Shown here: positions 49,934-55,485 of the stretch, piece by piece
Position numbering within the stretch: the first letter of the stretch is position 1
How the letters are laid out: every line of letters begins with the position of its first letter
NCBI RefSeq assembly: GCF_002890915.1
Contig: NZ_POUT01000001.1
Location: 682,001-746,000, forward strand
Direction of reading: 5' to 3'
From: Stutzerimonas stutzeri
GTDB lineage: Bacteria; Pseudomonadota; Gammaproteobacteria; Pseudomonadales; Pseudomonadaceae
Length of the DNA: 64,000 nt
Position numbers and translations under genes: made by a program
Notes under the pieces: model-generated
Told to the model about the DNA's origin: nothing
Seen by the model: only the letters and a program-made list of their open reading frames with translations
Database searches by the model: none

Positions 49934-50006
49934 TGTAGGAGCCCGCTTGCGGGCGATAGCCGCACCGGATCGCCCGCAAGGACTCGGCGTCCCCCGGGCT
50001 CCTACA
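49934..50006. repeat. Extragenic inverted repeat (TGTAGGAGCCCGC family)
   Basis: TGTAGGAGCCC (from 49934) pairs with GGGCTCCTACA (49996-50006), and CTTGCGGGCGAT pairs with ATCGCCCGCAAG (49969-49980), making a long imperfect cruciform. Confidence 0.85.
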
Positions 50007-50060
50007 GGGTTGCCATTCCGGGGGGGCCGTTCGTTGCGCCTCGCTCGGCAAGCTACAGAC

Positions 50061-50123: not shown

Positions 50124-50958
50124 TCAGAGCAGATTCAACTGCTGCCCCGGCGGAGCGAAAAGGCTGCAGTCCAGCCCCTGGTTCTGCTCGCGGCGGTTGT
50201 AGCCCAGGCGCTTGCAGGCCAGCTGGAAGCGCTGCGCCAGTAACTGGGCGAACTGGCCCTCGCCGCGCATGCGGCTGCCGAAGCGGCTGTCGTAGACCTT
50301 GCCGCCACGTGACTGGCGGATCAGGCTCATGACGTGGGCGGCGCGCTGCGGGAAATGTTCCTCGAGCCAGGCCTCGAACAGCGTGGCGATCTCGTGGGGC
50401 AGGCGCAGCAGCACGTAGCCGGCCGAGCGCGCGCCGGCTTCGCGCGCGGCCTCGAGCAGGCGCTCCAGCTCCATGTCGTTGATCATCGGGATCATCGGCG
50501 CGCACATCACGCTGACCGGTACGCCGGCCTCGTGCAGCGTGCGCAGCACCCGCAGCCGCGCCGTTGGCGAGGCCGTGCGCGGCTCCATGATGCGCTTGAG
50601 CTCGTCGTCCAGCGTGGTCAGGCTGACCGCGACGCTGACCAGCCGCTGCTCGGCCAGCGGCACCAGCAGGTCGAGGTCGCGCAGCACCAGCGAGCCCTTG
50701 GTGATCAGGTGCACCGGATGGCGGAAGCGCAGGAGGATCTCCAGCGCCTGGCGGGTCAGCCGTTGCTCGCGCTCCAGCGGCTGGTAAGCATCGGTGTTGA
50801 TGCCCAGGGCGATCGGCTGCGGCACGTAGCCGGGCCTGCTCAACTCGGCCTCCAGGCGTTCGGCGAGGTTGGTCTTGGCGATCAGCCGGGTCTCGAAATC
50901 GATGCCGGGCGAAAGGTCCCAGTAGGCATGGCTGGGCCGCGCGAAGCAGTAGATGCAG
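50124..50958 (-). pseudogene. PA0069-like radical-SAM gene, 3' fragment (split by element)
   Basis: This is the downstream piece of a SplB-like/PA0069-family radical-SAM gene. Read from 50958 it starts in the Fe-S motif (CIYCFARPSHAYWDLSPG) and continues through FETRLIAKTNLAERL to the stop at 50124. The other piece is at 55256-55485. Just upstream in the integrated state is a TAG in frame, so this part cannot be translated as a fusion; the first internal Met is at 50843. With the element removed, 835 + 230 bp gives exactly 355 codons. The protein would be 354 aa, normal for the family. Confidence 0.9.
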
Positions 50959-50981
50959 ACGTGCTATGTTAAAGGTTCCAT
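50956..50981. other. Left attachment junction (attL) of the integrated element
   Basis: Host sequence ends at CAG (50956-50958). Element sequence follows with AGGTTCCAT at 50973-50981, 14 nt from the CAG. The right junction has the reverse-complement motif ATGGAACCT 15 nt from its own CAG. Confidence 0.8.
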
Positions 50982-51001
50982 AGCCTTGATCTGCTCAAAA
51001 A

Positions 51002-52573
51002 ATGACCAAAAAGTGCTTTCCATACGTTCGCTTTTCATCTACACGGCAAGAAGATGGAAGCACCAGAGAGCGTCAAAACGCCCTTATAGACGCCTTCGTG
51101 TCCAAATACGGTCTGACGGTAGATAGGGCATTAGAAGACCCAGCAACGTCCGCATATCGTGGTTTAAACGCATCAAAAGATGGGGTGCTTGGTGGCTTCC
51201 TTGAACAAGTCAGGAAGGGGGAAATTGAGAAAGGTTCTTATTTGTTGATTGAGAACTTTGATCGACTTTCACGGGATAAGATAGTTCGAAGCAATAAGAT
51301 CTTTACTGATCTTTTGTTTGCTGGCATCAAAGTCGTGATACTTGATAAAAACAAGATTTATGATGCTGATAATCTTGATTTCGGAGATTGGATTACGGCA
51401 CTTGTAGAGTTTGAACGAGCAAATAAAGAAAGCGAAAGAAAAAGTGATTTGATTAGCAAGGCTTGGAATATCAATCGCAATAAAATGCGAGACGGTGAAA
51501 TCGTAACTAAAAAAGCTCCAAGTTGGTTAAGTGTCGAGGATGGTGTTTTTCTCGTAGATTTAGATAAGGTTAATAGGATAGAACAACTATTCAAGTTATC
51601 GCTTAAATATGGCCTATTAGAAGCAACCAAACAATACAATCAATTATATGTTGATAAGTTGGCACCTCATCAAGTGCAATATCTATTGGGAAATAGAAAG
51701 TTAATAGGTGAGCATCAACCTAAGAAATTGCATTGGGAAGATGGTGGTAAAAGAAGGCTTAAAGATGAAGGCAAAGCGATTCCAAATTATTATCCAGTAG
51801 TTATAGAACCAACTCTATTCTTTAAGGTTCAAGAGATAATAAACGACAGGAAGCCATTCACCGGAAACTATAATAAGCAACAATACAACATATTTAGGGG
51901 CTTAATTTACTGCCGTTGGTGCGGTGGTACTATCCGGTATATGAACAAGGGAGAAAGGGACTATTTCATATGTACCAATTCAATGGGCCATAAATGTGTA
52001 GTTCCAGGTCAACAGTCAATTAGAGGGAAAAAATTATTTTCTTTGTTCTTTCAGTTCACATACAGACTGAACATTCAATCATTGATTGAAGAAAATAAGG
52101 ACTACTCAAACATAAAGAATGAGATGCTAGCGGTTGAGAACAAGAAGAATAAACTTCAATCCAGCATTGATGATTTTAAATCCAGATTAAAGAAAATGGT
52201 TATTGATAACCAATCAATTCCCAATACCTTATATGAAGTATTACAAGAACTTGAAAATGATTTCAGTGCTTTACATGAATCTTCAAAGTTATTAGAAGAG
52301 AAGTATAACCAAGCAACCCAATCCTATAATGCTCTGCTTGAAGTTGAACACATAGATATTGAATCCATTATCTATGACAGGTCAGAAGAAGCCATTGAAA
52401 AAAGAGTTGCGTACAACCTAACATTGAAATCAATTTTTAAAGGCATAGCGATAGATTGGTTGAGCGATATGCTTGTACTTGAATTTAAAGACGGCACAGT
52501 TAGATATTTAGCCGAAGGTCAAAGAGTTCCAACAGACATTCCAAGCGATATTGATTTACCAGATTTGGAATAG
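51002..52573 (+). CDS. Large serine recombinase (site-specific integrase)
   Basis: 523 aa. N-terminal resolvase domain with the Y-x-R-x-S-x3-Q pattern (Y8, R10, S12, Q16), so S12 is the likely nucleophile, and the conserved DRLSRD (87-92). A recombinase domain (about 155-285) is followed by a zinc ribbon with C304, C307, C324, C332, a long coiled coil (about 365-440) and a basic tail. This order is that of phage-type large serine integrases, which join attP and attB with a short overlap. The start lies 43 bp inside the left end, without a strong ribosome site. Codon use is AT-rich, unlike the host. Confidence 0.95.
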   Translation: MTKKCFPYVRFSSTRQEDGSTRERQNALIDAFVSKYGLTVDRALEDPATSAYRGLNASKDGVLGGFLEQVRKGEIEKGSYLLIENFDRLSRDKIVRSNKIFTDLLFAGIKVVILDKNKIYDADNLDFGDWITALVEFERANKESERKSDLISKAWNINRNKMRDGEIVTKKAPSWLSVEDGVFLVDLDKVNRIEQLFKLSLKYGLLEATKQYNQLYVDKLAPHQVQYLLGNRKLIGEHQPKKLHWEDGGKRRLKDEGKAIPNYYPVVIEPTLFFKVQEIINDRKPFTGNYNKQQYNIFRGLIYCRWCGGTIRYMNKGERDYFICTNSMGHKCVVPGQQSIRGKKLFSLFFQFTYRLNIQSLIEENKDYSNIKNEMLAVENKKNKLQSSIDDFKSRLKKMVIDNQSIPNTLYEVLQELENDFSALHESSKLLEEKYNQATQSYNALLEVEHIDIESIIYDRSEEAIEKRVAYNLTLKSIFKGIAIDWLSDMLVLEFKDGTVRYLAEGQRVPTDIPSDIDLPDLE

Positions 52574-52599
52574 TTTGCTATACATTTGGTCGAATAATT

Positions 52600-52626
52600 A
52601 GCCGGCTAATTCAGTCGGCTTTTTTA
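52600..52626 (+). terminator. Rho-independent terminator of the recombinase gene
   Basis: AGCCGGCT (52600-52607) pairs with AGTCGGCT (52613-52620, one G-U pair), loop AATTC, then a T6 run. The left arm is also the core of a perfect 14-bp palindrome, ATTAGCCGGCTAAT (52597-52610). Confidence 0.9.
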
Positions 52627-52670
52627 TGCCCTCTTGAAAACATTATAATATATGTTAACTTGTAATTAAC

Positions 52671-52756
52671 TAAAACTTTAAGTTTTATCAACCAGTTGTT
52701 TAACTCCCCACACTTTGCTACGCAAAGACGCTACGCTTGAGGGAAGTTAACTGGTT
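52671..52756. other. Dyad-rich region upstream of the relaxase gene, candidate oriT or operator
   Basis: A 17-bp near-palindrome TAAAACTTTAAGTTTTA (52671-52687) is followed directly by a long bulged stem: AACCAGTT (52690-52697) with AACTGGTT (52749-52756), extended by AACT/AGTT and CCC/GGG. It encloses a small hairpin CTTTGC/GCAAAG (52713-52727) and a direct repeat GCTACGC. It ends 53 bp before the relaxase-like gene. Inverted repeats just before a relaxase gene are typical of oriT, but I recognise no known nic sequence. Confidence 0.45.
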
Positions 52757-52809
52757 CCTTGTCGGAAGGACAGAAGCAAAAGCAGAACTAACAATTAACA
52801 AGAGGACTT

Positions 52810-54579
52810 ATGAATGTAAAAAATACTACTATGATTTGGAAACGTATGAACTACTCAGGTCAGCAGACCAGAGTAAATAAAACCGCTGGCCTTGCTCAAT
52901 TAAGAAGTTCACTTTCTCACAGTTTAAGAACTGTTAAGAAAGGAGAACTTGAATTCAATGAACAGTTGTCTAAACACAATAGAATAGTTTATCAAGGCAA
53001 AATAATTGCCCTTGATAGTTTATCTATTGATGAAAGGAAGGCCATCGTAAATGATATAGTTAGTTCTGTTTCTGCTGATGTAAATGCACATCAAGACATA
53101 ACTAAGTTTAAAAATGACCGCTCCAAATATGTCAGTAAATTAAAGACACTGGTTAAAAAGGATAATGAACCAGATGAGTTAAAAAGACTTATTCAGTCGG
53201 TTCTTGATGAGAGTGGAGCGATTGATTTATCTATCGTAAATACACTTGATGAAATGAGTTTAAAGCGTGTTAACGATAAGAAATCAGCACTAACCAATTA
53301 CATTGAACTACATAACAAGATAGTCAATTCTGCTGATGATTTAGCACATAAGAAGAAGACAGTTATCCAAGAATCGTTCTTTAAGTTTCCTTCACGCAAT
53401 AATATAAGTGAAGTTAAACCAGAGGACTACCTTAAAATCATACATTCGTTTCATCGTCAGTATTTGCCAGACTATGAAATAAAGGCGTGTGTCTTTCACG
53501 GTGATGAAGTATTAAGTAAAGACGATATGAAAAATGGCGTGCATCCTCATATTTTTATCAGTGGAAAGAATAGCAAGACTGGCCAATATGATTTAGTCAA
53601 TGCTCAATTGCAAGTTGTTAATCAGCATCTAAAAAACACAAACAGACCAGAATTAAAGAATGATTCTTTCCAGTCTGCACAAAAGATTGGAGAAGCATAT
53701 CAAGAACTTGTTTATCAATTCGTTAACAAGAAACTAAAAGAATATGGCTATTTAATAGAAGCAGCAGTTAGCGAAAAGACTATTGAGCATAAGCAAAAGA
53801 TAGCGAACATAAAGAAAGAACAGAATAAAGCCAAGGTATCCAGAAGTTATAATTTACTTAATCATACACTTGATGAGATTAGTAAGGCTGAGGCAGAAAA
53901 GAAGAAACTTGAAATTGAAAACAAGCGTAAAGCCGAAGAATTAGAGTTAAAGAAGAAACAATTCAACTCAGTTATTAAGCGAATGAATGAACGCAACGAC
54001 CAGTTCAAGAAACTTGAGGCGGATATAAATATAAATAATGGAATCCTAGCCAATACCAATAAAGAGATTGTTAAGCAATCCAAAATTAAAGATGACTTGG
54101 TTGAATCAAATAAATCATTACATGATGAGCAGAATAGGCTCAAATCATTAATTAAGAAAGAGAATAAAGAACTTGATGTTCTTAGAAGTAGAATCGCATC
54201 AGAACAAAAAGAACTTAGTTTTCAAATAGAACAGAACGACAAACTTAATCAATCTAATAAATCGTTGCTTAAGCAGATTCAAGAGAATGAAATCAAGAGA
54301 CAAAAGGTTGAAGATTACGACCTAAAATTAAACTTGCTTTCGTTTAACATTCACGACCGTAGAAAAATTGAATCCAGTTTAAAAGAGTTCAATAAGGCAA
54401 ATTACGCACTATTAAAAGAGATGAGCCCAAAAGAACGCGACGAATTTTTAATGGGTCAGCAAGAACGATTTAAAAGAGAATCTATTGATACTGTTGTCGA
54501 TACATCTTTAAGTACAACCCAGAAGGTTGGGCTTTTCTTTAATGATGTAAAACGAAGAATAATTAAACCCGGTAGTTGA
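52810..54579 (+). CDS. Divergent MobV/Pre-like relaxase (mobilization protein) candidate
   Basis: 589 aa with an AGAGG ribosome site. The N-terminal block MNYSGQQTRVNKTAGL then SHSLR (H37) resembles motif I of MobV relaxases, where HNxR supplies the catalytic His. FHGDE (H230) followed by HPHIFIS (H245, H247) resembles the HxDExTPHxH metal site, but with about eight extra residues between the halves. The C-terminal third (about 320-530) is a long Lys/Glu/Gln-rich coiled coil, as in MobM. Predicted function: nicking at an oriT for transfer of the element. The differences from the consensus leave open a structural or DNA-binding role. Codon use is AT-rich. Confidence 0.6.
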   Translation: MNVKNTTMIWKRMNYSGQQTRVNKTAGLAQLRSSLSHSLRTVKKGELEFNEQLSKHNRIVYQGKIIALDSLSIDERKAIVNDIVSSVSADVNAHQDITKFKNDRSKYVSKLKTLVKKDNEPDELKRLIQSVLDESGAIDLSIVNTLDEMSLKRVNDKKSALTNYIELHNKIVNSADDLAHKKKTVIQESFFKFPSRNNISEVKPEDYLKIIHSFHRQYLPDYEIKACVFHGDEVLSKDDMKNGVHPHIFISGKNSKTGQYDLVNAQLQVVNQHLKNTNRPELKNDSFQSAQKIGEAYQELVYQFVNKKLKEYGYLIEAAVSEKTIEHKQKIANIKKEQNKAKVSRSYNLLNHTLDEISKAEAEKKKLEIENKRKAEELELKKKQFNSVIKRMNERNDQFKKLEADININNGILANTNKEIVKQSKIKDDLVESNKSLHDEQNRLKSLIKKENKELDVLRSRIASEQKELSFQIEQNDKLNQSNKSLLKQIQENEIKRQKVEDYDLKLNLLSFNIHDRRKIESSLKEFNKANYALLKEMSPKERDEFLMGQQERFKRESIDTVVDTSLSTTQKVGLFFNDVKRRIIKPGS

Positions 54580-55252
54580 TTTGACTTTAGTTATAATTAT
54601 AGTAGTATATAAAAAGGTGAAGCCCTAATGCGATTAACATTAAGGCTTCGGGTTGAATACTGATGTCGGCAGATTCAACATATTTAAGTTATATCATATT
54701 CTAACAACTTGTCAAATATAAAACCTGCCGAAATATCCATATCCTAATAATAAATTTCAGTGTTTAACTCTCTTGCAATGTAGGAAATTCAAGCGATTGT
54801 TTCGTTGCATAGAGCCAAGTAAGCACCCTGCTTTGAAATAACATCAGCAGGTAAAACGGGGATACTGCAAATGCTTACGACCTACCAGCCATATAGTGAT
54901 ATATGTTGAACAAGGTGCAGTTAAGGTGTTGATATAGCCGACATAGTGTTCAAAGTTTAGAATGAGTATCACATATCTAAACCCCGAGCTATTAAAGTTC
55001 AGGTAAGGCTCCAACTGATTTAGTTTATTAAGTCAGGAAGACCAGCTTTGCCCGAGCTTTGACTGAAAGGAAAAGCAAAAGGCAAGGCTGGAATTAAGAG
55101 CTTTAAAAACACTATCTATATATATATTACTATCTACACACGCATACGCACACACACGCATAAGCCTACCCCCCTTTCCCTTATTTTATTCAGCCTTATA
55201 AAACTGGTTGAAAATCACTCAATTCAAGATGGAACCTATCGCAGAACACACC
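54580..55252. other. Non-coding tail of the element, dense in inverted repeats
   Basis: No convincing gene. Ordered inverted repeats: GAAGCC-TAATG/CATTA-GGCTTC (54619-54649); TCGGCAG/CTGCCGA (54666-54672, 54725-54731); CTCT-TGCAA/TTGCA-AGAG (54768-54778, 54805-54814); GTAAGCA/TGCTTAC (54819-54825, 54872-54878) enclosing CCTGCT/AGCAGG; GTTGAAC/GTTCAA (54905, 54948); GTTTAGA/TCTAAAC (54955-54961, 54976-54982); CTGATTT/AAGTCAG (55015, 55030); CCAGCTTTGCC/GGCAAGGCTGG (55042-55052, 55081-55091). A TA/CA-rich stretch follows (55110-55160). It could be a structured RNA, an origin or an oriT. Confidence 0.6.
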
Positions 55253-55255
55253 CAG
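55229..55255. other. Right attachment junction (attR) of the integrated element
   Basis: ATGGAACCT (55229-55237), 15 nt, then CAG (55253-55255) at the return to host sequence CCGTGCTCGC. Joined to the left end this makes a dyad with AGGTTCCAT on the far side of CAG. Confidence 0.8.
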
Positions 55256-55485
55256 CCGTGCTCGCAGCCGCGATAGGGATTGACCGAACGATCGAAGCCG
55301 ACGTCCGGCGACTGGTTGCGGGTGATCACCGTCTTCGCCGTCTCGCGGCGCACCTCGGTGGCGCGGGTCGGCGGCACGTCCTGCTGCCAGCCGTCGTCGT
55401 AGGCTTCGCTGCGCGTCGGCGCGAAGCGGTTGTCGGGGTTGATCGCGGTGCCGCGGCCGCGGGGCGTCGAGCGAAGGTGGGTCAT
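55256..55485 (-). pseudogene. PA0069-like radical-SAM gene, 5' fragment (split by element)
   Basis: Starts at ATG 55485 (MTHLRSTPRGRGTAINPDNRF) and runs through DRSVNPYRGCEHG to the junction, stopping just before the second cysteine of the CxxxCxxC cluster. In the integrated state translation continues 12 residues into the element (WVCSAIGSILN) and stops, giving an 88-aa product with one of the three cysteines in place. The joined protein would read CEHGCIYC. A LexA box lies just upstream (55503-55518). Confidence 0.9.

Follow-up and report, generated by a model that had tools for sequence, protein, structure and literature searches.

The 64,000-nucleotide stretch of Stutzerimonas stutzeri DNA analysed here (the window) contains a radical-SAM gene in two pieces with foreign DNA between them, raising the question of what kind of element split the gene, why it lies at that position, and whether the gene could be regained. 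The C-terminal part (positions 50124-50958, minus strand) begins at the second cysteine codon of the CxxxCxxC motif and matched the NCBIfam model NF033668, 'PA0069 family radical SAM', over profile positions 68-347 (E 2e-98). The N-terminal part of the same gene (55256-55485, minus strand) ends at CEHG of CEHGC and matched the same model (E 1e-23), so that the two matches meet at profile positions 68 and 72; these halves were the only NF033668 matches in the whole genome. Joined with one CAG kept, they gave a 1065-bp frame, open from ATG to TGA, in which CEHGCIYC was restored. A preliminary description of this DNA had placed two minus-strand fragments here and held that they join in frame, as they do; its product of exactly 355 codons was right in length and counted the stop, the protein being 354 aa. 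A REP-like palindrome (GTAGGAGCCCGCTTGCGGGCGAT...TCGCCCGCAAG...GGGCTCCTAC) was situated downstream of the split gene at window positions 49935-50010.

All 56 genomes of the genus had the radical-SAM gene, and the nearest intact homologue found among them (G098) was 92% identical over the larger, C-terminal piece. Alignment of the orthologous locus had been set beforehand as the test of the predicted junction, and the intact G098 site fitted the join without indels, with one synonymous difference in or near the att core. Contiguous empty attB sites were also recovered from Alphaproteobacteria in a DNA search of plasmid records, one of them annotated as PA0069 family radical SAM. Carriage of the element by plasmids was rejected, as no recombinase relative of at least 60% identity and no element DNA were found on plasmids, the plasmid DNA matches being these empty sites. 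Neither half of the split gene contained a stop or frameshift, its dN/dS against G098 was 0.09 (0.03-0.18 for intact pairs), and none of the positions conserved across 64 intact homologues was substituted. The dN/dS and conserved-position counts thus reveal no decay, bearing out the earlier statement that the gene is not a decayed one. Undecayed halves fit a recent insertion equally well; occasional restoration would predict the same.

Measured from crossover to crossover, the insert was 4297 bp long with a GC content of 35.2%, compared to ~65% for the chromosome. The two junctions shared a CAG core, at 50956-50958 on the left and 55253-55255 on the right. This core was common to all related elements but one (G330), in which the strictly shared bases were CA. 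The crossover most likely falls at CA, which reads TG on the gene strand and opens the second cysteine codon of CxxxCxxC. Just inside the junctions lay the left (50961-50981, plus strand; GTGCTATGTTAAAGGTTCCAT) and right (55229-55249, plus strand; ATGGAACCTATCGCAGAACAC) element ends, both conserved in relatives, which form the arms of an inverted repeat in the reconstituted attP. A repeat search found these ends to be 76% complementary. The arms were symmetrical at 17 of 25 positions in the window, and partial symmetry (14-18 of 25 positions) was seen in all nine elements. Only two plausible genes, an integrase and a relaxase-like gene, were found in the 4.3 kb, and a conjugation pore of its own was absent. 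The right part of the element (54580-55252) was non-coding and gave no Rfam match.

The first gene (51002-52573, plus strand) encoded a large serine recombinase of 523 aa, with a Resolvase catalytic domain (Pfam, 3.8e-10) followed by a Recombinase domain (3e-4) and a zinc ribbon (Zn_ribbon_recom, 3.5e-5; at 24.5 bits just under the cut-off of 25.3), the domain order of large serine integrases, and it matched a PHROG integrase family (6e-43). The attachment sites were also those of a large serine integrase: attP and attB differ, share a short core and contain imperfect inverted repeats. A phage origin was considered and rejected, as an IMG/VR scan contained no relative of the recombinase and relatives in phage records were only 23-31% identical. 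We propose that the element would enter the cell as a circle, and that the integrase would recombine attP (an imperfect inverted repeat, TGGAACCT...TG...AGGTTCCA) with an attB that corresponds to the CEHG-C-IYC coding sequence of the PA0069-family gene. Crossover over 2 bp, most likely the TG of the second cysteine codon, would then split the gene with all of its letters kept, and the enzyme would presumably be lost.

The second gene (52810-54579, plus strand) encoded a 589-aa protein with the motifs HSLR (residues 37-40), HGDE (230-233) and HPH (245-247) and a long coiled-coil tail. HGDE...HPH and the upstream HSLR were invariant in three aligned homologues, including two from sister elements. 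A more distant homologue, 25% identical (WP_206971073.1, listed as 'hypothetical'), is carried by the Vibrio plasmid pSTUT-A16-2, a 4-kb replicating plasmid without an annotated integrase, and has the same H-x-D-E...H-x-H pattern in the form HVDE...HSH. No Pfam or NCBIfam relaxase model matched the 589-aa protein up to E 1, and for this reason we refer to it as relaxase-like and leave it outside MOBV (Mob_Pre). Sequence searches of solved structures returned nothing useful, and Foldseek alone gave no significant match for the predicted model. This model was of low confidence overall (mean pLDDT 58), with a better predicted HUH core at about residues 183-320, and its top structural neighbours (VIA) included conjugative relaxases at middling scores of Z 6.1-6.3, among them MobM (4lvk; Z 6.2, rmsd 3.5 over 121 residues), which tied with TraI-type relaxases. 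A truncated model was poorer (mean pLDDT 51). Taken together, the motifs and the fold ranking suggest that the second gene probably encodes a diverged, MOBV-like HUH relaxase. Upstream of it, an imperfect inverted repeat (52690-52756, plus strand; DNA fold z -2.2), nearly identical in the related element L002, is a candidate oriT.

Relatives of the recombinase were first found in seven other genomes, and a census of 398 Pseudomonadaceae genomes, which overlaps in part with this first set (L002, for example, is G225), contained 11 carriers including the window's own, one of them with the recombinase at another site. Within the genus, 2 of 56 genomes were carriers. A wider gammaproteobacterial sample contained neither the recombinase (368 other genomes, at E 1e-50) nor the relaxase-like protein (338 other genomes). 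At all seven of the first-found loci the C-terminal piece of the radical-SAM gene lay next to the recombinase and had the same first residue, and in the census the gene was split at the same cysteine codon in nine of the ten other carriers; recombinases down to 36-37% aligned identity kept this site. Such recurrence at one codon across the family excludes chance insertion. A transposon with untargeted insertion, or a faulty assembly join, can thus be discounted as highly improbable: the same codon was hit in many independent genomes, the closely related L002/G225 element had the same boundaries in a separate assembly, and the element occurred in its own genome as a single copy (at 100%). The insertion is real and precise, was made by a recognisable kind of element and lies within a catalytic-cysteine codon. 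The precise disruption by a serine-recombinase element put forward in the preliminary description is supported. In G242, a 33% identical recombinase (L059, G242:C10:350370-351926) was located elsewhere, and the radical-SAM gene of that genome was intact.

Elements of the family ranged from 4.3 to 12.1 kb and were mostly 33-39% GC, with one (G394) at 51%. Several sister elements carried textbook MobA/MobC, in the form of MobC-like and MobA/VirD2 relaxase genes. In L005, a relative of the window's relaxase-like protein was swapped in, next to a recombinase 97% identical to those of MobA-carrying neighbours. A phage-GPA-like replication initiator in another sister element (L008:12438-14021) suggests that some family members may replicate as circles. 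Recombinase identity and host-gene identity were uncorrelated across nine elements (Spearman 0.08). Recombinases from P. mendocina and P. putida were 98% identical while the host genes were 74% identical, and G330 and G394 shared host genes at 95% and recombinases at 32%. Since recombinase similarity did not follow host similarity, sequence comparison indicates that the family spread by repeated horizontal arrival rather than by descent.

The insert is thus a discrete integrated element flanked by attL and attR, with an empty site in relatives, an integrase of its own and no conjugation pore, which are the features of an integrative and mobilizable element (IME). With high confidence, we consider it a minimal IME of a Pseudomonadaceae family, comprising a large serine integrase and a probable diverged HUH/MOBV-like relaxase. 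The site is among the most constrained stretches of a dispensable, widespread chromosomal gene, which would offer the element the same target in every potential host. Serine-recombinase IMEs of Firmicutes (Tn4451 with TndX, and Streptococcus IMEs in rumA) likewise combine a single large serine recombinase with their own relaxase, share a very short core and insert inside a dispensable gene (PMC5704250). Unlike those, the elements described here occupy Pseudomonadaceae, target a radical-SAM gene, and have either a MobA/VirD2-like relaxase with MobC or a diverged HUH protein. As far as the literature searched shows, the family is new as described and of a known kind.

Whether the gene can be regained depends on excision. 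Serine integrases usually need a directionality factor for this reaction, and none was recognisable in the element. It also lacked a 120-126 aa gene which adjoins the right end in three relatives (L002:11145-11525, L005:11873-12235 and L006:12155-12517; 38% identical). Furthermore, no match to the VirB4 or VirD4 families and no conjugation apparatus were detected in the genome, leaving the element without an evident conjugation partner, so that conjugative exit would need a visiting plasmid. These absences are what would be expected of the same IME in a stranded state, with excision lost and the gene permanently lost and bound to decay, a reading that we regard as possible and clearly the less probable one: of the nine other elements searched, only three had the right-end gene, so that some members do without it, excision by TndX of Tn4451 needs no directionality factor (PMC5704250), and both the integrase and the gene halves are intact. 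Excision by an integrase acting alone also has other published precedents: it reached 38% in vivo with the phiJoe integrase (PMC5311408), and basal excision was measured for the Streptomyces phage Samy (PMC12924846). In the IME that we favour, the probable relaxase would enable a conjugative system arriving from outside to transfer the excised circle into another host cell. The preliminary description called the gene reversibly inactivated; the undecayed halves agree with this, whereas the lack of a recognisable excision factor and of VirB4 or VirD4 in the host does not, and we judge reversibility to be plausible and only partly supported.

A restored gene could also benefit the host. In the Anabaena fdxN element and the SP-beta prophage, regulated excision restores a host gene, and a comparable switch here would give some cells of the population a working radical-SAM enzyme again. 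Precise, in-frame restoration, the unblemished halves and a weak resemblance between the recombinase and XisF (1.5e-8, well below the cut-off) would be in keeping with such a role. We nevertheless think a host-useful switch very unlikely: carriers are sporadic in both the genus and the family, they show no vertical association with their hosts, the large majority of genomes keep the gene whole, and recent insertion accounts for the lack of decay as well. Given the sporadic distribution and missing vertical association, the element was not classed with programmed-excision elements of the fdxN or SP-beta type.

The cysteine cluster was not the target of this IME family alone. Of 332 census genomes with a match to the PA0069 family, 14 had the gene broken at these codons; ten of these breaks, the window's included, were due to the present family, and the other four (G148, G115, G174 and G204) to other DNA. 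At least three of the four were islands that had inserted a few bases away and carried a terminal module with Phage_integrase-type tyrosine recombinases, with sizes of ~30 kb in G204 and ~75 kb in G174, and with the G115 island spanning two contigs. By layout alone, they resemble GInts or SEs (PMC5385486, PMC10214605). Their loci (L106-L113, in G204, G174, G115 and G148) contained restriction-modification-like cargo and a terminal module of proteins of 784/700/314/128 aa. In the sister Rv2578c family, alignment to the profile for intein-containing members (NF038136) breaks after position ~78 and resumes at 335, and the NCBIfam model assigns the intein to the final cysteine in that same CxxxCxxC motif. 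Samy has a serine integrase and an attB in a radical-SAM gene of this sister family, in a region described as an integration hotspot; unlike the element in the window, it is a phiC31-like temperate phage of Actinobacteria and not an IME (PMC12924846). Its published 12-bp repeat, TCGGGTGTGTCG (PMC12924846), would be compatible with the G-C-V codons of the CxxxCxxC motif, as we infer from that repeat alone. The serine integrases of phiJoe and of the small SCO2603 elements also share an attB in a radical-SAM gene; here, in contrast to the present family, attB is situated in a different, B12-binding radical-SAM gene, 74 bp from its end, and phiJoe has an RDF gene (PMC5311408).

These comparisons indicate that the target is an insertion hotspot for unrelated mobile DNA, with islands of one or more unrelated classes striking the cysteine cluster, and the sister family hit by an intein and, at the level of the gene, by a published phage. 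In this small, naturally occurring example, selfish DNA of unrelated kinds has converged on those codons of a widespread gene that tolerate change least. The Pseudomonadaceae elements also constitute a sequence-verified serine-integrase family whose attB and attP can be predicted to single-base precision, and in high-GC Pseudomonas and Stutzerimonas hosts the integrase and its attB may be of practical use as a pair. In two further genomes, G284 and G328, the break in the radical-SAM gene was near profile position 202-214 and probably reflects a frameshift rather than an insertion.
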